This document shows positions 1 to 8,703 of a stretch of DNA of 64,000 nucleotides, piece by piece (within the stretch, counting starts at the first letter, position 1; the number at the start of each line of letters is the position of its first letter). The notes beneath the pieces are model-generated. The model did no database searches. It was not told where the DNA came from and saw only the letters and a program-made list of their open reading frames with translations. Made by a program: the position numbers and the translations under genes. Source of the DNA: Albidovulum marisflavi (lineage in GTDB: Bacteria; Pseudomonadota; Alphaproteobacteria; Rhodobacterales; Rhodobacteraceae); NCBI RefSeq assembly GCF_025751435.1, contig NZ_JAOWKY010000001.1, positions 124,001 to 188,000 of the forward strand, written 5' to 3'.

Positions 1-925
1 CCATCATGCCTTCGCGCAGCGTGTAGGTCCTGCCGTCCAGCGCCAGAAGTTCCTCGCCGCCCTTGGCGGGATGGATGCGCAGATCGCCCTTGACCTTGGC
101 GACGTCAAAGACGTGCAACGGGCGGTTCAGCCCGAAGGTGAAGAAGTTGGTGATGTCGACAAGGGCCGAGATCGGGCGCAAGCCGATGGCCTTGAGCCGC
201 GCCTGCAGCCAGGCGGGCGAGGGGCCGTTCCTGACGCCGCGGATCGTGCGGCCCGCAAACAGGGGGCAGCCCCTGGCCTTCAGCGCGTCGTCGATGACGA
301 CGCCCACGGGGCTGTCGAAGGCGCCCGCGACCGGCTCGACCGGCAGCGGCTTCAACGTGCCAAGTCCCCGCGCGGCCAGATCGCGGGCAATGCCGCGCAC
401 ACCAAGCGCATCGGGGCGGTTCGGCGTGATCTTGATGTGGATCATCGGATCCACCGCGCCGGGGCGGTTCGCCGCCAGCCAGTCCACGAACTTCTGACCC
501 ACATCGCCCGAAGGCAATTCGATGATGCCGTTATGTTCGTCCGACAGCTCAAGTTCGCGCTCCGAGGCCATCATGCCGTGGCTTTCGACGCCCCGGATCT
601 TGCCCACGCCCAAGGTCACGTCGATGCCGGGCACGTAGTCGCCGGGCTTGCACAGGACGACGGTGATCCCTTCGCGCGCGTTGGGCGCGCCGCAGACGAT
701 CTGCTTTTCGCCTTCGTCCGTCAGCACACGGCAGACCCGCAGCCGGTCGGCATCGGGATGCTGTTCGGCGTGCAGCACCTTGGCCAGGGTAAAGGTCGCA
801 AGCTTCGCGGCCGGGTTGACGATTTCCTCGACCTCCAGCCCCAGGTCGGTCAGCGCCTCGGCGATCGCCTCGACCGAGGCGTCGGTTTCCAGGTGGTCTT
901 TCAGCCAGGAGAGGGTGAATTTCAT
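1..925 (-). CDS. pheT: Phenylalanyl-tRNA synthetase beta subunit, N-terminal part (cut by window start)
   Basis: Large subunit of the class II alpha2beta2 synthetase that charges tRNA-Phe in the cytoplasm. About 308 codons are present, from the start codon; the rest lies outside the window. The protein opens [20 protein letters not shown], the usual PheT start, followed by the OB-fold tRNA-binding region (about residues 40-150) and the start of the B3/B4 editing region. The ATG at 923-925 overlaps the TGA of the upstream amidotransferase gene (ATGA), and an AGGAA Shine-Dalgarno lies at 932-936 inside that gene. The first 35 bases are repeated exactly at 1758-1792. Identity is clear; the odd feature is the set of genes separating it from pheS. 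Confidence 0.97.
891..925. repeat. 35-bp direct repeat, copy 1 (5' end of live pheT)
   Basis: These 35 bases are identical to 1758-1792. They run from the pheT ATG into codon 12. Beyond the perfect block the similarity continues in diverged form for about 18 more bases. It is one of two copies flanking the glutamine amidotransferase gene. Confidence 0.95.
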
Positions 926-1683
926 TTCGCTTTCCTATCTCTGACGAGCGCGAGCCAGTTTCTCAGCTCGGTCCTGTGAACTTCGTGCGACAATCCGGCC
1001 GGCGTGGTGCCGAACCGGGCCGCGGCCTCTGCGTCGGTGGTCGAGGCGCGCAGCGCGGCGCAATCGCCGGACGCGCGCCCCAGTCTTTCAAGCACGTCGG
1101 ACAGATGCTCCACCGTGTATTCGGGGTGATACTGGCAACCCCAGAAGGTGACGCCATCCTGTTCGTAGACCATCGCCTGCACCGGCGAATGCGCGTTGCC
1201 GGAGATCAGGACCGCGCCCGGCGGGAGATCCGAAACCTCGTCGCGGTGGATGCACAGCGCGGCATAGCCGTCCTGCCGGCCCGCCATCATCGGATGCGTG
1301 CGCCCGGCCTTCGTCAGCGCGATTGCCCGCGCGGTGCCCTCCTCGCGCCCGTTGGGCGAGGCTTCGACCCGGCCGCCCAGCACGACGGCGGCAAGCTGGA
1401 GCCCGTTGCACGATCCGTAGACCGGACGCCCCGCCGCGAAGGCCGCGCGCATCGCGACCCGGAGCGGCTCGGCCTCGGGTGCGGCGGTGCTCCACTCGAC
1501 GCTCGACCCGGTAAAGACGATCCCGTCGGCATCGCCAAAGGTTTCGGCCGCCGCGGCGCCCGCATAGGGTTCGACCACGCGGATCTGAAGCGCGGGGTCG
1601 ATGGCGAGCAGCGCCGCCGCGAACCCTTCGGACTGCGCGGGCAGATCGGGCGTGTTGCTTTCGACGATGGTGATCTTGGTCAT
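922..1683 (-). CDS. Class I glutamine amidotransferase-like protein
   Basis: 253 residues, a stand-alone GATase domain like the glutaminase half of GMP synthase. The nucleophile elbow is GSCNGLQ with Cys92, and the catalytic His-Glu pair lies in QYHPE (His186, Glu188). The triad is therefore complete, and hydrolysis of glutamine or a gamma-glutamyl compound is plausible, but the acceptor substrate is unknown. The gene lies between the pheT remnant and pheT, and its TGA (922-924) overlaps the pheT ATG. Its 3' end carries AGGAA, which serves pheT. I see no strong Shine-Dalgarno before its own ATG. It is flanked by 35-bp direct repeats of the pheT start, so it looks like an inserted cargo gene rather than part of tRNA charging. 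Confidence 0.85.
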
Positions 1684-1708
1684 GGGAGTCCGGGGGGATG
1701 GGGAGGCG

Positions 1709-1792
1709 TCAGGAGTGGGGGGTTGGCTGGCACGCCTCCACCGGGGCGGTGGTGTCGAGGTGGTCTTTCAGCCAGGAGAGGGTGAATTTCAT
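1709..1792 (-). pseudogene. Remnant of a second pheT 5' end
   Basis: Read on the minus strand from the ATG at 1790-1792, this gives [20 protein letters not shown], then diverges and stops at TGA 1709-1711 (27 codons). The live PheT starts [20 protein letters not shown], so 16 of 20 residues agree, with the first 12 codons nearly identical in DNA. The ATG overlaps the stop of the upstream SUKH gene exactly as the live pheT ATG overlaps the amidotransferase stop. A GAGGAG Shine-Dalgarno sits 8 bases upstream (1801-1806). I read this as the start of an earlier pheT, cut off when the amidotransferase gene entered. Confidence 0.85.
1758..1792. repeat. 35-bp direct repeat, copy 2 (5' end of pheT remnant)
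   Basis: Exact match to 891-925. It includes the remnant ATG and lies directly downstream of the SUKH-family gene. The interval between the two copies is 832 bp and contains only the remnant tail and the amidotransferase gene. Confidence 0.95.
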
Positions 1793-2229
1793 GCTTGTTG
1801 CTCCTCGGGAAACCACGCCATCTGCTCGGACTTTTCGAAAAAACCGGCTAGCGTTGAATCCACGGGCATGAAGTCATCTATGCCCGTGTTGACGTATTGG
1901 ATTAGGCCGAAACCGATACCTGGTTGGTAGGCAATATGCTCAGACGACCCGTTTGTACCGATGATTGTGAGTTCAGTTGGAATCGACTGTCTCACGGCCT
2001 CTAGGCTTGCAAGGTCCCATGACTCTCGTGGAGTAAAGAGTTCAAAGTACTCCCCGTTCAGATCCGCACCGGCAAAGCCTTTGAAACGACCGTACAAAGT
2101 CCAGAACTCGCGAAGGTCCTGTGGGCACTCAATGCTCCAAAATACCTCCCATTCCGCGATCTCTTTTTGCGATGCGGGTGCAGCCTCAACACTACTATTC
2201 GCAAGAACCCTCGCGATGACCTCGCTCAC
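1789..2229 (-). CDS. SMI1/KNR4 (SUKH) family protein, probable immunity-type protein
   Basis: 146 residues with a GTG start (2227-2229) overlapping the pheS stop (GTGA). The pattern is that of the SUKH fold: an N-terminal helix and a [18 protein letters not shown] segment like the family's LP-x-D/L-x-x-F-x-x-x-N/Y-G motif, a central strand ending [16 protein letters not shown], and a C-terminal TLAGFF helix. SUKH proteins often neutralise nuclease or deaminase toxins of polymorphic toxin systems; no toxin gene is adjacent, so an immunity role is inference. G+C is about 52% on the lines I counted, well below the neighbours at about 66%, suggesting recent transfer. Its stop overlaps the ATG of the pheT remnant. 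Confidence 0.8.
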
Positions 2230-3299
2230 CTGCTCAACCCCCCCGCCACCGTCGGCATGTCCAGCGCCGCGAAGCCGTAGTGGCGCAGCCAGCGCAGGTC
2301 GCTCTCAAAGAACGCCCGCAGGTCGGGGATGCCGTATTTCAGCATCGCCAGACGGTCGATGCCCATGCCGAAGGCGAAGCCCTGCCATTCGTTCGGGTCG
2401 ACGCCCGCCGCGGAAAGGACCTTGGGGTGGACCATGCCGCTCCCGAGGATCTCCATCCACTTGTCGCCCTCGCCGATCTTCAGCTGGCCGCCTTCCCAGG
2501 AACAGCGGATGTCGACCTCGGCCGAGGGTTCGGTGAAGGGGAAGTGGCTGGCGCGGAAGCGCAGCTCGACGCTGTCGACCTCGAAGAACGACCGGCAGAA
2601 CTCCTCCAGCACCCATTTCAGGTTCGCCATGGAGATGTCGCGGTCGATCGCCAGCCCCTCGACCTGGTGGAACATGGGCGTGTGGGTCTGGTCCATGTCC
2701 ATGCGGTAGACGCGTCCCGGCGCGATGACGCGGATCGGCGCGCCTTGCGCGGCCATGGCGCGGATCTGCACCGGCGAGGTGTGGGTGCGCAGCACGTGCG
2801 GCGGGCGGTCGTCGCCCTCCGCACGCGCCATGAAGAAGGTGTCGTGTTCCTGGCGCGCGGGGTGTTCCGGCGGGATGTTCAGCGCGTCGAAGTTGTGCCA
2901 GTCATCCTCGATCTGCGGCCCCTCGGCGACGGCGAAGCCCATGTCGGCGAAGATCGCGGTAACCTCCTCGGTCACCTGGCTGACGGGATGGATCGTGCCC
3001 TGCCGGCGCGGGCGGCCCGGCAGCGTGACGTCCAGCCATTCGCCCTTGAGCCTGGCGTCAAGCGCAGCATCGGCAAGCGCCGACTTCTTGGCGCGCAACG
3101 CCGCGTCGATTTCATCCTTCAGCCGGTTCAGCGCCGCGCCCGCCGCCTGGCGGGTGGCCGGGTCCATTTGCCCCAGTTCGCGCATCTTCAGGCTGATTTC
3201 GCCCTTCTTGCCAAGCGCGGCGACCCGAATCTCTTCCAGCGCGGCTTCGTCGCCGGCGCCGGCAATAGCGGTCAGATAGTTGTTTCTCAGATCGTCCAT
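2226..3299 (-). CDS. pheS: Phenylalanyl-tRNA synthetase alpha subunit
   Basis: 357 residues, the catalytic class II subunit that activates phenylalanine. An N-terminal coiled coil (about 1-85) precedes the synthetase core. Motif 2 is [20 protein letters not shown] (about 196-215) and motif 3 is [20 protein letters not shown]-like (about 309-328). I chose the ATG at 3297-3299 because GGGAG lies 7 bases upstream; a TTG two codons earlier is less likely. It is transcribed in the same direction as rplT but is separated from it by a terminator, so it probably has its own promoter in 3300-3520. The TGA overlaps the GTG of the SUKH gene. Confidence 0.97.
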
Positions 3300-3520
3300 G
3301 TCCAAGCTCCCATGCCCGCTGTCAGCTACCGGTCAACGGCCAGTGACGCAAGCGTCCGCATCCAATTCGGCGTGCAGTCCCCCGCCGTCCGGTCGGCGCG
3401 CGCGCCGGAAGCGGTTCGGGACGGTTCCCTGCATGGCGCGGGATCGAATTTGCCCGTCGCTTGCGCAGGGCGCGGTCGTGCGCGCCAGATCGAAAGCTTC
3501 CGCCATCCTTCGCCATCCGT
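3300..3520 (-). promoter_or_regulatory. pheS upstream region, no gene seen
   Basis: About 220 bases between pheS and the rplT terminator. I see no convincing gene or tRNA here. It must hold the pheS promoter because a terminator isolates it from rplT, but I cannot point to a clear -35/-10 pair, and I found no obvious attenuator peptide rich in phenylalanine. Confidence 0.4.
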
Positions 3521-3559
3521 AAGCAAAGAAGCCGCGAAACCCAAAGGCTCCGCGGCTTC
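3521..3559 (-). terminator. Rho-independent terminator after rplT
   Basis: Perfect 9-bp inverted repeat (3528-3536 with 3551-3559, GAAGCCGCG/CGCGGCTTC) with a 14-base loop. On the minus strand it is followed by TTTGCTT. Confidence 0.8.
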
Positions 3560-3583
3560 CGAAAACTTGACCCTGAAAGGGTG

Positions 3584-3946
3584 TTACGCGAGCGCGGCCT
3601 TCGCCTTTTCGACGATGGCCCCAAACGCCGCCGGCTCATGCACGGCCAGATCGGCCAGAACCTTGCGGTCGACCTCGATGCCGGCCTTGGACAGCGCGTT
3701 GATGAAGCGCGAATAGGTCAGCGATTCGTCGATCGCGCGAACAGCGGCGTTGATGCGCTGGATCCACAGGGCGCGGAAGTTGCGCTTGCGCGCCTTGCGG
3801 TCGCGGGTCGCGTACTGCTGCGCCTTGTCGACGGCCTGGGTAGCGGTGCGGAAGTTGCGCGAACGGGCCGAGTAGTAGCCTTTCGCCTTCTTGATGACCT
3901 TGCGGTGACGGGCGTGGGTGACGACGCCGGATTTAACGCGGGACAT
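3584..3946 (-). CDS. rplT: 50S ribosomal protein L20
   Basis: 120 residues, normal length for L20. It is very rich in Lys and Arg, starts [20 protein letters not shown] and holds the conserved segment [20 protein letters not shown]. It binds 23S rRNA early in large-subunit assembly. It lies 14 bases downstream of rpmI, the usual rpmI-rplT pair. infC is not in the window, as often in this group. In E. coli and Bacillus L20 represses its own operon through the leader; I cannot show that here. Confidence 0.98.
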
Positions 3947-3960
3947 GTGTCAGTCTCCTA

Positions 3961-4161
3961 TCAGCGATTGTACGGCATGTATTTCTTGACGATCTTCGCA
4001 TCCGAGTCGGACAGGAGCATCGTGCCCGTGGCCTTGCGGATAAAGTCCGTCGAACGCTTGATCATGCCGTGACGCTTGCCGGCGACACCTGCTTTCACAC
4101 GGCCCGTGGCCGTCATCTTGAACCGCTTCTTCGCGGCCGATTTGGTCTTCATCTTGGGCAT
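3961..4161 (-). CDS. rpmI: 50S ribosomal protein L35
   Basis: 66 residues, the standard L35 size. It begins [20 protein letters not shown] and contains KRHGMIKRS. It is the first gene of the rpmI-rplT operon. A good promoter lies at 4240-4268, giving a leader of roughly 70 bases. Confidence 0.98.
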
Positions 4162-4462
4162 GTTTCATCTCCATCTCAGACGTGAACGTGCGACTCGGCA
4201 ATGCCACTTGGCCGGCCGCACGGGGTATTCGAGAGGCGCCCTATAGCCGGGTGGGCCAGATATGGCAAGGGGGGCGGCCAACGCCGGGAACTACAGGGGG
4301 GGCCGCAAGGTGGCCGTCGCACAACCTATGCGCGAAAACGCGGGATCGCGATCTACTTTTTCCGCAGAGGAAACACTCTTGTTATAGAGGGCGCGGCGGA
4401 AATACGGCGAAACGTCGGCATCCGTGTGGCATTATTGTGGCACCTGTAAATGGGAGGTGTTT
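4162..4462. other. 300-base divergent intergenic region between rpmI and the small secreted protein
   Basis: It contains the rpmI promoter (4240-4268, minus). Rightward, a weaker candidate for the secreted-protein gene is TTTCCG about 18 bases before TATAGA near 4383-4389. G-rich runs occur at 4269-4310. I see no further gene. Confidence 0.6.
4240..4268 (-). promoter_or_regulatory. Sigma-70-type promoter for rpmI-rplT
   Basis: On the minus strand: TTGCCA (4263-4268), a 17-base spacer, then TATAGG (4240-4245). Start of transcription would be near 4233, about 70 bases before the rpmI ATG. Confidence 0.65.
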
Positions 4463-4699
4463 ATGTTCAAGACAATTCTTCTTTCTGCCTTCACGGTGGC
4501 CGCGCTTGCGACGACCGGCCTTGTGGCGACGTCGGCCGGTCCTGCCTTTGCCGAAGGTGACGTGGTTTGCAACGGAGGCGGTGGCGGCTGCCCGAGGAAG
4601 AAGGGCAACAACGGCTGGGGCAACGGCGACCAGCCGGCGCCGGGGGGATCCCTTCCGAACAATAACGCGGAGAACGGTCCCGGCGGCAACCCCGATTGA
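4463..4699 (+). CDS. Small secreted Gly/Asn-rich protein
   Basis: 78 residues from the ATG at 4463, chosen because GGGAGG lies 5 bases upstream; an in-frame ATG 13 codons earlier lacks such a site. Residues 1-30 form a clear signal peptide ending near GPAFA/EG. The mature part, about 48 residues, has two cysteines (VVCNGGGGGCP), a basic PRKKGNN stretch, then GWGNGDQPAPGGSLPNNNAE. Its Trp/Gly/Asn/Asp-rich motif has no catalytic look and I do not recognise a named family. The two Cys could form a disulfide in the periplasm. It has its own terminator, so it is a single-gene unit. Confidence 0.75.
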   Translation: MFKTILLSAFTVAALATTGLVATSAGPAFAEGDVVCNGGGGGCPRKKGNNGWGNGDQPAPGGSLPNNNAENGPGGNPD

Positions 4700-4730
4700 C
4701 AGTCGCGTGATCCATCAACCTTGATCCAGA

Positions 4731-4763
4731 AACTCCGCCCTTGGGGGCGGAGTTTTTCCTTTC
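4731..4763 (+). terminator. Rho-independent terminator after the small secreted protein
   Basis: Stem AACTCCGCCC (4731-4740) with GGGCGGAGTT (4744-4753), 3-base loop, then a T-rich tail. It lies just outside the end of convergent pyk and may work weakly for it too. Confidence 0.85.
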
Positions 4764-4769
4764 CAGGCC

Positions 4770-6218
4770 CTATTCCGGGTCGGTGCGGTAGATCAGCCGT
4801 TCGTCGCAGGGCGCCACGCGCAGGATGTTGGTGGTGCCCTTGACGTTGAAGGGGACGCCGGCGGTGACGACGATCTGGTCACGCTCGGTCGCGAAGCCAT
4901 ATTCGCGCGCGGCCTTGGCCGCGTTCACAACCGCCATCTTGAAGCGGTCGATCGGGTCATTCGTCAGTGCGCAATGAACGCCCCAGGTCAGGCACAGCCT
5001 GCGCGCCGTGGCCTGGATCGGCGTCAAGGCGATGATCGGTACGTTCGGGCGTTCCCGCGCGACAAGGCTTGCGGTGGTGCCGGACTGGGTGAAGCAGCAG
5101 ATTGCGTGGATGTCGGTCGCCTCGGCGATCTCGCGCGCGGCGGCGACGATGCCGTCGGCGATGGTCTTGCGATCCACCCTGCGGCTGGCCTCGATCACCT
5201 CGCGGTAAGTGGGGTCTGCCTCGACCGATTTCGCGACGCTGTCCATGGTGGCGACGGCCTCGACCGGGTACTGGCCCGCGGCCGATTCCGCCGACAACAT
5301 CACCGCGTCGGCACCCTCGTAGATCGCCGTCGCGACGTCGGACACTTCGGCCCGCGTCGGCATTGGGCTTTCGATCATGCTTTCCAGCATCTGGGTGGCG
5401 ACGATCACGGGCTTGGCCGCAGCGCGCGCGCCGCGCACCAGCCGCTTCTGGATCGGCGGCACCGAGTGCACGGGCAGCTCCACGCCCAGGTCGCCACGCG
5501 CCACCATGATCCCGTCCGAGGCGGACAGGATCGCGGCATAGGCCTTGACCGCCGCCGGTTTCTCGATCTTCGACAGGATCGCGGCGCGGCCCTTTGCAAG
5601 ACGGCGCGCCTCTTCCACGTCCTCCGGCCGCTGGACGAAGGACAGCGCCAGCCAATCCACGCCCAGACCGCAGGCGAACTCAAGGTCGGCCTTGTCCTTG
5701 TCCGACAGGGCCGCCACCGGCAGCACCACGTCGGGAACGTTCACGCCCTTGCGGTTCGAGATCGTTCCACCCGTCGTCACCGTGCAATCCGCGAAGTCCG
5801 CACCGCAGTCCTCCACGCGCAGCCTTATCTTGCCATCGTTGACCAGAAGCGTTGTTCCAGGCTCGAGCGCGTCGAAGATTTCCTTGTGCGGCAGGCAGAC
5901 TCGGATTGCGTCGCCCTCGGCCGGGTCAAGGTCGAAGCGGAACCTGGCGCCCTCTTCAAGCTCCTCGGAACCATTGGCGAAAACACCCACACGAAGCTTT
6001 GGCCCCTGAAGGTCCGCCAGGATGGCGATCGGGCGGCCGGTATCGGCCTCGATCTGCCGGATGATGTCGTGACGGGCCTTCTGTTCCTCGTGGCTGCCAT
6101 GGCTCATGTTCAATCGGAACACGTCGGCGCCGGCTTCGAACAGGGCACGGATCGTCTCGTAATCGCTGGACGCGGGGCCGAGCGTTGCCACGATCTTGAC
6201 ATTGCGCAGACGTCTCAT
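4770..6218 (-). CDS. pyk: Pyruvate kinase
   Basis: 482 residues; phosphoenolpyruvate plus ADP to pyruvate plus ATP, the last step of glycolysis. Landmarks in order: KIVATLGPAS (8-17), FRLNMSHGSHEE with the substrate Arg35, ILADLQGPKLRVG, the active-site Lys in SKIEKP, and the signature IMVARGDLGVELP followed by ATQMLESM and MLSAESAAG. A C-terminal allosteric-type domain is present. I start at the ATG 6216-6218, which has AGGGAGC about 6-8 bases upstream, not the TTG nine codons earlier. A promoter is visible upstream at 6254-6282. It converges on the small secreted protein gene. Confidence 0.97.
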   Translation of the reverse strand: MRRLRNVKIVATLGPASSDYETIRALFEAGADVFRLNMSHGSHEEQKARHDIIRQIEADTGRPIAILADLQGPKLRVGVFANGSEELEEGARFRFDLDPAEGDAIRVCLPHKEIFDALEPGTTLLVNDGKIRLRVEDCGADFADCTVTTGGTISNRKGVNVPDVVLPVAALSDKDKADLEFACGLGVDWLALSFVQRPEDVEEARRLAKGRAAILSKIEKPAAVKAYAAILSASDGIMVARGDLGVELPVHSVPPIQKRLVRGARAAAKPVIVATQMLESMIESPMPTRAEVSDVATAIYEGADAVMLSAESAAGQYPVEAVATMDSVAKSVEADPTYREVIEASRRVDRKTIADGIVAAAREIAEATDIHAICCFTQSGTTASLVARERPNVPIIALTPIQATARRLCLTWGVHCALTNDPIDRFKMAVVNAAKAAREYGFATERDQIVVTAGVPFNVKGTTNILRVAPCDERLIYRTDPE

Positions 6219-6253
6219 CCACTGGCTCCCTGTTTGCGGTAACATCGCGGGCT

Positions 6254-6282
6254 TCTATGACCTATTCCCCATTTCAGGGCAA
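6254..6282 (-). promoter_or_regulatory. Candidate promoter for pyk
   Basis: Minus strand: TTGCCC (6277-6282), 17-base spacer, CATAGA (6254-6259). Spacing is ideal and the position, about 40 bases before the start codon, fits. Confidence 0.5.
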
Positions 6283-6341
6283 CTGGTGCTTTGCTGCAAG
6301 AGGGTCTAAACCGGCAAAAACGAAGGTTCAGTGACAGGAAC

Positions 6342-7082
6342 ATGACATTTCAGCCGTTCGACATCCTGGGACGCGACCGTCCGTCACGCTGGCTGGTCAC
6401 CTGTGATCATGCAACCAACGCCGTGCCCGAATGGGTGGGCGGCGGATCGCTTGGCATCTGCGCAGCCGACATGGAGCGTCACATCGCCTATGATGTGGGC
6501 GCGGCCGGCCTGACGCGGGCCCTTGCCGAAAGCCTGGGCGCCCCCGCGATCCTGTCGACCTTTTCGCGCCTGGTGATCGACCCCAACCGGGGCGAGGATG
6601 ACCCGACCCTTCTGATGAAGCTTTACGACGGCACGATCATCCCCGCGAACCGCCACGCCGGGCCCGATGAGCTGGGGCGGCGGCTTGAAGCCTGCTACCG
6701 CCCCTACCATGCGGCCTATGCCGACCTGGCCGCGCGCCGACCCGACACCGTGATCTGCGCGGTCCACAGCTTCACCCCGCGCCTCAACGGCCGCGCATCC
6801 CGTCCGTGGGAGGTCGGGGTGCTGTATTCCCACCTGGACGACCGGCTCGCGCTGCCACTGATCGACCGCCTCAGGGCCGAAGGATACGTGACCGGCGACA
6901 ATGAACCCTACAGCGGGCATCTTGACGGGGACGCCATCGACCGCCATGCGCTGCGCCACGGCAGGCCGAACGTGCTGATCGAGGTCAGGAACGACCTGAT
7001 CCGCGATGCGGCGGGCCAAACCTTGTGGGCCGCCCGCCTTGCCCCCATTCTTGAAGAGGTACTGGCCGCATCCGGCCTGTGA
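6342..7082 (+). CDS. N-formylglutamate amidohydrolase family protein
   Basis: 246 residues from the ATG at 6342 (AGGA lies only 3 bases upstream; an in-frame TTG at 6291 is the alternative). The N-terminal half carries WLVTCDHATNAVPE, the family's metal-binding His segment, then FSRLVIDPNRGEDD. The centre has VHSFTPRLNG, and the end has NVLIEVRNDLI, all typical of the FGase (PF05013) fold. The family hydrolyses N-formyl-L-glutamate, often in histidine breakdown, but no hut genes are near, so the real substrate may differ. It is followed 9 bases later by a DUF1244 gene. Confidence 0.9.
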   Translation: MTFQPFDILGRDRPSRWLVTCDHATNAVPEWVGGGSLGICAADMERHIAYDVGAAGLTRALAESLGAPAILSTFSRLVIDPNRGEDDPTLLMKLYDGTIIPANRHAGPDELGRRLEACYRPYHAAYADLAARRPDTVICAVHSFTPRLNGRASRPWEVGVLYSHLDDRLALPLIDRLRAEGYVTGDNEPYSGHLDGDAIDRHALRHGRPNVLIEVRNDLIRDAAGQTLWAARLAPILEEVLAASGL

Positions 7083-7091
7083 GGATTGCCA

Positions 7092-7409
7092 ATGGACGAA
7101 CAGACACGCATCGAGATCGAGGCCGCCGCGTTCCGCACGCTCCGCCATCACCTGATGGAAAAGCGCGCGGACGTGCAGAATATCGACCTGATGAACCTGG
7201 CCGGGTTCTGCCGCAACTGCCTGGCGCGCTGGTATCAGGAGGCCGCCAACGAGCGCGGCATCGAGATGTCGAAGGACGAGGCGCGCGAAATCTACTACGG
7301 CATGCCCTACGACGACTGGAAGGCGCAGTCGCAGACCGAGGCGGACGAGGCCAAGAAGGCTGCGTTCGAGATAGCTTTCCGCGAAAACGTTGGTCCGAAG
7401 GACGGCTAG
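7092..7409 (+). CDS. DUF1244 family protein
   Basis: 105 residues, the normal size of this all-helical family. The signature is NLAGFCRNCLARWYQEAA (about residues 34-51), with two cysteines that in structures of relatives could bind metal. It also has EAREIYYGMPYDDWK. GAGG sits 7 bases before the ATG. It follows the N-formylglutamate amidohydrolase gene closely, so both are likely cotranscribed. Function is unknown for the family. Confidence 0.9.
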   Translation: MDEQTRIEIEAAAFRTLRHHLMEKRADVQNIDLMNLAGFCRNCLARWYQEAANERGIEMSKDEAREIYYGMPYDDWKAQSQTEADEAKKAAFEIAFRENVGPKDG

Positions 7410-7485
7410 GGCGCTCACCAGCAGGTTGGGCGGATGGAAGCTACCAGATAGTCTGCCCTTGGCTTCATACCCGGGATCATCGACC

Positions 7486-7806
7486 TTGGCTTTCATTCGC
7501 CGCTTCGGCCTCGCATTGACCCTTGGCCTTGCCGCATGCACGGCGGAAACCAGCCAGATCGGCACGGCTCCTGCGCCGGGCCAGACCGCCGGGTCTTCCG
7601 AGCAGACAGCGATCAAGGCCGAAAGCATCGCGTTCGAATACCAATGGATCGCAAGGCACAGGCCCGGCTGGAAGCCTGTCTCCCAGGGTTTGCTGATCAA
7701 TGACGCCGACGAGCCCTTTGATCTGATCACGATCGAAAAGGGTGGAAAGACCGAAGCGATCTACTTCGACATTTCAAGCTTCTTCGGGACTGGCTTCGGC
7801 TTCTGA
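7486..7806 (+). CDS. Small putative lipoprotein, function unknown
   Basis: 106 residues if the TTG at 7486 is used. This start puts a short basic-hydrophobic signal (LAFIRRFGLALTLGLAAC) right at the N-terminus, with lipobox LAAC. The mature part is about 90 residues, with an Ala/Thr/Ser/Gly-rich linker and then a compact domain ending TGFGF. The frame extends 96 bases further upstream, overlapping the DUF1244 stop, but has no ATG in the useful place. No strong Shine-Dalgarno is visible, which lowers confidence. The lipobox and good coding character argue that it is real. Confidence 0.55.
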   Translation: MAFIRRFGLALTLGLAACTAETSQIGTAPAPGQTAGSSEQTAIKAESIAFEYQWIARHRPGWKPVSQGLLINDADEPFDLITIEKGGKTEAIYFDISSFFGTGFGF

Positions 7807-7839
7807 GTCGGGCCAGACGTGATCAGGTGGCCCGCCGCT

Positions 7840-8703
7840 TCAGACAGCGGCCTTGCGGCTTTCTTCCAGATAGATCTCGCGCAGACGGGTCGCGACCGAA
7901 CCCGGCGTACCGGACCCGAGCTTCGCTCCATCGATTTCCACCACCGGCATGACGAAGGCCGAGGCGGAGGTGATGAAGGCTTCATCCGCCGCCTTCGCCT
8001 CTTCCAGCGTGAAGGCGCGTTCCTCGACCGTCATCTGTGCCTCGCGCGCGAAGCGCAGCACGGCGGCGCGGGTGATGCCGTGCAGGATGTCGCTCGACAG
8101 GTCGCGGGTGATGATGCGTCCGTCCTTGACGATGTAGGCATTGTTCGATGTGCCTTCGGTCACGACGCCGTCTTCCACCAGCCAGGCATCGTCGACGCCT
8201 GCCTTCTTGGCCATCATCTTGCCCATCGAGGGGTACAGCAGTTGCACCGTCTTGATGTCCCGCCGCCCCCAGCGGATGTCGGGGATCGAGATCACGCGCC
8301 ACCCGGTCTTCGCGGCCGGGCTGTCCGCCAGTCCCGGCTTGGACTGGGTGAACAGCACGATCCCCGGTTTGACCACGGTCGGATCGGGAAAAACGAAATC
8401 CCGGTCGCCCGGGTTGCCGCGCGTGACCTGAAGATAGACCAGCCCGTCCTCGATCCCGTTCCGCGCCACCAGCTCGCGGTGGATCGTCAGGAGTTCTGCG
8501 TCCGTCACCGGACATCCCATGTCCAGTTCCGAGAGCGAACGGTGCAGCCGCGCCGTGTGGCCCGGAAAATCCAGAAGCTTGCCGCCCAGAACGCTTGTCA
8601 CCTCGTAGACCGCGTCCGCCATCAGGAACCCGCGGTCGAAGACGGACACCTTCGCCTCTTCCTCCGGCACGTAGTCCCCGTTCACATAGACGATGCGGCT
8701 CAT
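7840..8703 (-). CDS. dat: Class IV aminotransferase, D-amino-acid transaminase type
   Basis: 287 residues, pyridoxal-phosphate fold type IV. It opens MSRIVYVNGDYVPEEEAKVS with VFDRGFLMADAVYE, the class IV N-terminal pattern. The PLP lysine lies in RRDIKTVQLL, and the signature EGTSNNAYIV binds the cofactor phosphate. It resembles D-alanine/D-amino-acid transaminase more than IlvE because of length and N-terminus. Branched-chain or aminodeoxychorismate activity is the alternative. The ATG at 8701-8703 fits family starts. It converges on the small lipoprotein gene. Confidence 0.88.
   Translation of the reverse strand: MSRIVYVNGDYVPEEEAKVSVFDRGFLMADAVYEVTSVLGGKLLDFPGHTARLHRSLSELDMGCPVTDAELLTIHRELVARNGIEDGLVYLQVTRGNPGDRDFVFPDPTVVKPGIVLFTQSKPGLADSPAAKTGWRVISIPDIRWGRRDIKTVQLLYPSMGKMMAKKAGVDDAWLVEDGVVTEGTSNNAYIVKDGRIITRDLSSDILHGITRAAVLRFAREAQMTVEERAFTLEEAKAADEAFITSASAFVMPVVEIDGAKLGSGTPGSVATRLREIYLEESRKAAV

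Follow-up and report, generated by a model that had tools for sequence, protein, structure and literature searches.

A probable single-gene exchange slot between pheS and pheT of the Rhodobacteraceae, examined from an Albidovulum marisflavi locus with two pheT starts

Operons of essential genes are usually thought to be closed to foreign genes. In a 64,000-nucleotide stretch of the Albidovulum marisflavi genome (contig NZ_JAOWKY010000001.1, positions 124,001 to 188,000; hereafter "the window"), two cargo genes and a dead copy of the pheT start lie between the aminoacyl-tRNA synthetase genes pheS and pheT. Comparison of this locus with related genomes leads us to consider it likely that the pheS-pheT junction is a family-wide slot in which single genes are exchanged within an essential operon, and, jointly with this, that the exchange proceeds by homologous recombination at the ends of the core genes without a recombinase carried by the cargo.

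The window locus reads, on the minus strand, from pheS through a SUKH-like open reading frame (ORF), a dead 60-bp pheT start and a class-I glutamine amidotransferase (GATase) gene to the live pheT. Its features, in window coordinates, are:

2226-3305, minus strand: pheS, the left border of the slot (Pfam tRNA-synt_2d, 336 bits), with its stop TGA within GTGA
1789-2229, minus strand: cargo 1, the SUKH-like ORF, 146 aa (Pfam SMI1_KNR4, E 3.3e-5, 24.9 bits)
1801-1806, minus strand: Shine-Dalgarno-like GAGGAG ahead of the dead pheT start (from the sequence)
1733-1792, minus strand: dead pheT start copy, 60 bp, its first 35 bp identical to the live copy
1709-1792, minus strand: 27-codon remnant frame opened by the dead start and closed by TGA (from the sequence)
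922-1683, minus strand: cargo 2, the GATase gene, 253 aa (Pfam GATase, 50.8 bits)
932-936, minus strand: Shine-Dalgarno-like AGGAA ahead of live pheT, within the GATase gene (from the sequence)
866-925, minus strand: live pheT start, counterpart of the dead copy, of probable donor origin by sequence comparison
1-925, minus strand: 5' part of live pheT (Pfam B3_4 and tRNA_bind); the gene, 802 aa in total, extends beyond the window

The original prediction, made from this stretch alone, had described two genes in series with TGA stops overlapping pheT ATGs, two Shine-Dalgarno-like stretches and a 27-codon remnant, and all of these were confirmed. The SUKH-like ORF starts with a GTG on the pheS stop (GTGA) and ends with a TGA inside the ATGA of the dead pheT start, and the GATase TGA lies inside the ATGA of the live pheT start at 925; the 4-bp overlaps with pheS and with live pheT belong to two different genes. 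The GATase passes the curated cut-off of PF00117 (50.8 vs 22.8 bits) and contains the Cys of GSCNGLQ and the His and Glu of YHPEY, which we take to be the class-I glutamine amidotransferase motif. The SUKH label holds in part: the ORF matches SMI1_KNR4 but narrowly misses the curated cut-off of SUKH-1 (PF09346; 24.9 vs 25.4 bits), and its single-sequence structure model is poor (mean pLDDT 49.9). Its GC content is 52%, with 67% in the window pheS and 69% in the GATase gene, and no copy was found on plasmids.

The predicted exact 35-bp repeat (891-925 and 1758-1792) is present, and the similarity extends to 60 bp at 90% identity (866-925 and 1733-1792), dead and live starts sharing 54 of 60 bases and differing at six. 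The exactness of the first 35 bp is in part due to the conservation of this stretch across the genus anyway. When the 60 bp were compared with the 3.8-Mb genome, only these two places matched well, the six other matches listed being 14-35 bp long. An assembly error behind the repeat is thought unlikely: the six differences between the copies argue against a simple assembly duplication, and the same layout recurs in other genera. The best BLAST match of the remnant is the pheT start of a sister species (G007; 98% over 56 bp), and over the variable stretch 21 of 25 bases agree between this start and the remnant, compared with 17 of 25 for the live copy. The remnant is therefore probably the native pheT start and the live start that of a donor, an assignment that is a lean and not proof because it depends on so few bases. 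An RNA element in or near the remnant was considered and rejected, with no Rfam match across positions 600-4300 and ordinary folding (z -0.91), and no tRNA gene was found in positions 1-8000.

Within the genus, 19 of 22 genomes yielded pheT; 18 regions besides the window were taken, 17 of them with both pheS and pheT, giving 18 intervals with the window. These range from 106 to 1300 bp, all except one carry an ORF of at least 75 aa (17/18), and their same-strand ORFs fall into 14 sequence families by BLAST clustering. A 4-bp overlap with both neighbours, at the pheS stop and the pheT start, is found in eight intervals, the window counted. Three members whose PheS proteins are 97-98% identical (G005, G001 and G020) carry DUF2513-type, membrane-type and HIRAN-like cargo, respectively, with no cluster in common; names of single ORFs were taken from a pooled profile scan, a separate DUF2513 search (for G003) and reading of the sequences. 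The refuting case named with the original prediction, the same genes and remnant in all relatives, did not materialise: neither window gene nor the remnant occurs at this place in the 17 other members, the SUKH-like gene is present in one of the 22 genomes, and no dead pheT start was seen in any interval except the window's. Because intervals in the genus usually contain a single cargo, the genes seem mostly to have been replaced, not accumulated.

The same arrangement extends across the family. We tested 119 Rhodobacteraceae loci, of which 24 had no pheS in the stretch and 95 had both genes; removal of four same-genome duplicates left 91. The gap between pheS and pheT is at least 200 bp in 76 of these 91 loci, which together with the different cargo of close relatives supports the earlier proposal of a cargo site in an essential operon. 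Among the 76, 32 loci have a first ORF that shares exactly 4 bp with the pheS stop and 26 a last ORF that shares exactly 4 bp with pheT; 19 have both overlaps, and 16 of these contain a single ORF. The cargo start was taken as the first start codon found from 8 bp ahead of the pheS stop onward, and by the same rule only 35 of 270 adjacent same-strand ORF pairs in these loci overlap by 4 bp, a control that is conservative because the slot pairs were left in. ORFs of at least 100 aa in the slot mostly follow the operon direction (71/92). Across the 91 loci the cargo amounts to 112 ORFs of at least 75 aa, some of them possibly spurious, in 64 clusters; conserved core genes on both sides thus enclose a gene content with high turnover.

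Outside the family, 40 stretches from other Alphaproteobacteria were drawn from 83 matches, mostly the closer ones, and one had no pheT. In the remaining 39 loci, pheS and pheT overlap directly by 4 bp in 27 (26 as ATGA, one as GTGA), and a gap of at least 200 bp occurs in two. Nor is the neighbouring rpmI-rplT junction open in the Rhodobacteraceae loci, where it reaches 300 bp in none of 51. The glyQ-glyS pair, which also encodes an aminoacyl-tRNA synthetase, seems to be split as well: in the best 30 of 277 matching genomes, with glyQ assigned by size and recurrence, one small ORF family lies before glyS in 18 loci, and other ORFs stand there in some of the set (L262-L291). As a separate observation, pheT of Ruegeria TM1040 and Tritonibacter mobilis (L322-L324) lies on a megaplasmid or large plasmid, and in TM1040, the only annotated record among these, no pheS is annotated within 5 kb upstream of pheT.

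Three cargo families were followed beyond the slot, using genome sets with one genome per species and, within the family, nearly always one per genus. DUF2513 occurs at 27 places in 26 of 295 genomes, and 21 of these adjoin pheS or pheT (19 of 24 above the Pfam cut-off). A membrane-type (TM) family, so labelled by eye from its hydrophobic N-terminus and all-helical in a structure model (pLDDT 76), occurs at 18 places in 18 of 290 genomes, 13 of them at the slot. The GATase has 26 places besides the window's (E up to 1e-20, 290 genomes), 24 of which are at pheS-pheT. When loci known before each search were excluded, the slot still accounted for 17/23 places for DUF2513, 10/15 for the TM family and 23/25 for the GATase. 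We then compared protein distances in the loci with both pheS and pheT present and without repeats (14 of 30 for DUF2513, 16 of 34 for the GATase). DUF2513 distances do not correlate with those of PheS (r 0.09, p 0.20, 14 loci), where PheS and PheT correlate with each other at r 0.58.

The cargo itself is varied. Genes starting at GTGA have a mean GC content of 52.4%, compared with 65.5% in pheS (n=31), the window GATase being an exception at 69%. Pfam matches include DUF2513, YrhK, TM2, ASCH, PemK, HepT-like, HIRAN, SMI1_KNR4 and an exonuclease, and many ORFs have no family assignment. DUF2513 relatives were found in eight phage records. PADLOC defence models match little (seven models, one ORF each, in 100 ORFs scanned). 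A defence-type role of the cargo would be plausible. The 100 scanned ORFs, out of 112, comprise all 85 on the same strand and 15 of 27 on the opposite strand; no integrase, recombinase or transposase is annotated for them in PHROGs, Pfam or NCBIfam, as judged from 18 PHROGs families (three named), 25 Pfam families out of 27 and 25 NCBIfam families out of 37.

Dead pheT starts are not confined to the window. A pattern scan allowing up to two mismatches located the pheT start in 320 of 394 family genomes, with two copies only in the window genome and in G395. A more sensitive comparison found an earlier dead pheT start in five of 152 distinct pheT starts, four clear and one probable:

Window: 60 bp, clear
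G395: 99 bp, clear
G160: 69 bp at 81%, clear
L079: about 38 bp with a deletion, clear
G107 (locus L125): 14 exact bp, 44 bp at 77%, E 0.005, degraded, probable

Each of the five has the stop of the preceding cargo embedded in the dead ATG as ATGA; in G395 this cargo is split across two frames. At L125, a 24-mer resembling the pheS end stands exactly at the beginning of the older cargo (20/24 matches, reached in 0 of 200 shuffles), as though DNA had newly arrived on either side of an old slot. Ten short matches (12-18 bp) beginning elsewhere than at the pheT start were discounted as chance. Internal matches in two loci without pheS, L099 (40 bp, E 8.7e-6) and L054 (27 bp), and a weak pheS-side match at L033 (30 bp, E 3e-4) were likewise left out; the L099 match outscores the G107 remnant, which was kept for its position. 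The original prediction had expected genes to stack up, each with its own copy of the pheT start. Such stacking with a second start proves to be the exception, and a start copy accompanies cargo only in this minority of 5/152.

Other features were noted at these loci and at pheT. Behind the dead start of L079, opposite-strand ORFs 560-1100 bp after the pheS stop resemble, by eye, a toxin-antitoxin pair of the RelE/Phd type. At L125, the interval 1091-1734 between the degraded start and live pheT contains what looks like a nucleotidyltransferase-like and HepT-like pair, and the profile scan of cargo gave one HepT-like match. In five genus members (L014, L015, L017, L018 and L021), a palindromic element with an GTAGGGCGGG-type arm lies directly ahead of the pheT start, within the last 100 bp, and takes the place of the ATGA overlap. 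In four others (L026-L029; G009, G006, G015 and G002) and in one locus of another genus (L124; G376), codons about 35-155 of pheT are strongly diverged. The corresponding N-terminal tRNA-binding region of PheT, diverged in these five of 138 sequences, is 54-56% identical to that of G007 and 86-100% to that of G009, with the ends of the protein more conserved, although in PheS the four genus members agree with the rest of the genus at 83-96% identity. Judged by sequence comparison, pheT is a mosaic with two allelic N-domains.

How might genes enter such a place? In most other alphaproteobacterial families examined, pheS stop and pheT start overlap by 4 bp. In the slot, a foreign gene often stands between two overlaps of this kind, its start on the pheS stop (GTGA) and its stop in the pheT ATG (ATGA); it would thus be readable from the pheS operon, and pheT would still be reachable by coupled re-initiation. 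The pheS end and the conserved pheT start could serve as anchors for ordinary homologous recombination between lineages, and dependence on these anchors would explain why the cargo families are largely confined to the slot. For the usual replacement of a single gene, crossovers in pheS and pheT would suffice. In the window, a donor fragment with the GATase gene and its pheT start would have joined the recipient pheT start, most likely by a single crossover of a recircularised fragment or by homology-facilitated illegitimate recombination. The product would be a truncated native pheT start (the 27-codon remnant), followed by the GATase gene and an intact pheT with the donor's first codons. In E. 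coli, single crossover of recircularised DNA has been reported to yield such duplications, in 56 of 60 clones by PCR, with 14 sequenced and lengths of 109-950 bp (the portion of PMC3240628 used here). The DNA could have been carried by a gene transfer agent, a natural candidate, or taken up by transformation; gene transfer agent genes are described as well conserved in Rhodobacterales in the part of PMC9836097 consulted.

Several observations weigh against this account. The pheT start of L117, which belongs to another genus, agrees with the remnant about as closely as that of G007 (57/60 vs 56/60), so that the predicted arrival of the live 5' end with the GATase gene is favoured but unproven. 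The last mismatch between the window copies lies 6 bp from the remnant end, which is short for a homologous crossover there, and the E. coli duplications, in the portion of that source used, exceed the lengths of these remnants. A close donor for the window GATase was not found in 290 genomes, the best matches being 56% identical over part of the protein and 54% over nearly its full length. Import of long donor flanks was looked for in 14 close pairs, which are not independent of one another, and gave no clear sign: there was no steady identity trend, the 200 bp next to the slot being less alike than the next 200 bp in eight of 14 on the pheS side and seven of 14 on the pheT side, by at most seven points. 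Similarly, synonymous divergence near the slot is no lower than in empty loci (59 vs 14 loci). Without a signal of flank import, the exchanged tracts would have to be very short or the exchanges old. Homogenisation of the pheT start across genera, in the role of an attachment site, was considered and rejected, because the low synonymous variation of the first codons occurs in empty loci too.

Two further points concern the generality of exchange. GATase distances do follow those of PheS (r 0.42, 16 loci), no less closely than PheT distances do (r 0.38), indicating that elsewhere the GATase is largely an old resident. The TM family shows no correlation with PheS (r 0.07, p 0.20; 20 loci including one duplicate pair), a result of little power because this family is so diverged, with a mean difference of 79% that is nearly saturated. 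Since the GATase follows PheS and DUF2513 does not, the slot contains one or more old residents together with one or more families that appear to move between lineages. Finally, the gap between rplT and pheS is at least 500 bp in 24 of 58 loci, and the slot is thus not the sole variable spot nearby.

This last finding also bears on the idea that genes insert at random and that selection retains inserts that keep pheT translated, making pheS-pheT one of many junctions that collect genes. The exactly overlapping cargo could be survivors of such selection, and the stretch before glyS, like that between rplT and pheS (24/58), is sometimes occupied by other genes. We nevertheless think this explanation unlikely, as it leaves unexplained why DUF2513 and TM homologues cluster at this one place across genera, and before glyS a single ORF family recurs (18/30 loci). 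Improbable too, in our judgement, is a recombinase-free cassette system with the pheT start as its attachment site, in which cargo and a short pheT start would be released as a small circle by looping out between the direct repeats (here separated by 867 bp) and could enter any related genome through one crossover, always leaving pheT whole and the cargo under the pheST promoter. If that were true, the slot would serve a bacterial family as a common platform for expressing small defence-like genes.

A vertical history, with an ancestral operon of pheS, several genes and pheT, differential loss and a remnant formed by internal duplication, would account for the GATase, which is at the slot in 24 of its 26 homologues outside the window and has distances that follow PheS, and for the two to four ORFs of some loci. 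It is quite improbable: 64 clusters among 112 ORFs are too many for an ancestral set, 16 loci have one gene only with 4-bp overlaps on both sides, DUF2513 distances do not follow PheS, the overlap is empty in 27 of 39 other alphaproteobacterial loci, and the SUKH-like cargo is AT-rich and present in one of 22 genus genomes. Very unlikely are site-specific mobile elements with a trans-acting recombinase and the pheT start as attachment site, akin to integrating elements that restore the beginning of the gene they target; the single insertion place, the intact target gene and the gene start repeated directly on either side of the insert in 5/152 loci agree with them, but no annotated recombinase was matched in the scanned cargo, the differing remnant lengths (about 38, 60, 69 and 99 bp, and one degraded) leave no fixed att core, 147 of 152 loci have no second pheT start and, as a weak point, no free pheT-start cassette was seen on plasmids among 15 of 26 matching records, five of the 15 having an annotated pheT.

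Exchange by homologous recombination at the core-gene ends has partial parallels in known systems. Integrating elements can rebuild the 5' end of their target gene, as SXT reportedly does at prfC, where incoming DNA supplies the new start; such elements are large and encode an integrase. The likeness to the window lies in the new start provided by incoming DNA, with no annotated integrase in the scanned cargo here. Integron gene cassettes are single genes that lack a promoter of their own and are expressed from a host promoter at one slot. The pheS-pheT junction resembles them as a slot, but no integron integrase is annotated among the scanned cargo, where the genome was not searched for one and no attC model was run. 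Closer are the hotspots flanked by core genes and free of mobile elements (Oliveira et al. 2017, PMC5635113), for which, in the part of that paper drawn on here, turnover is proposed to occur through recombination in the flanking core genes, as we propose for this slot. Compared with the hotspots described in that part, the present one lies inside an essential operon with overlapping genes, often holds one meshed gene, and has fossil starts that record separate arrivals. Core defence hotspot 1 of Pseudomonas aeruginosa also involves core genes around pheST and is thought to move by recombination in conserved flanks; according to the excerpt of the source used (PMC10250203), it differs in spanning 1-224 kb and in being bounded by merR and a DUF4011 gene, not lying between pheS and pheT. 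Homology-facilitated illegitimate recombination and single-crossover integration likewise leave a partial gene duplication beside foreign DNA, but the events in the portion of PMC3240628 used here are laboratory ones of 109-950 bp, whereas those here are shorter and comprise a gene start that keeps an essential gene alive. No description of a pheS-pheT slot was found in the open-licence literature searched, which is not proof of absence, and no mention of DUF2513 was found there. The slot is best placed, as a variant, among the known hotspots whose gene content changes through recombination in the core genes beside them, and the window probably shows one arrival caught in the sequence.

In summary, an essential operon seems to offer a ready-made expression site in which a gene has been swapped repeatedly across a whole family, its codons often meshed with those of its neighbours. 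Because the cargo is often uncharacterised or resembles toxins, antitoxins or immunity proteins, position in the slot may reveal new small defence genes. The junction is also a defined place at which to study how single genes that lack mobility functions are spread, by which vector (gene transfer agents or transformation) and under what selection.

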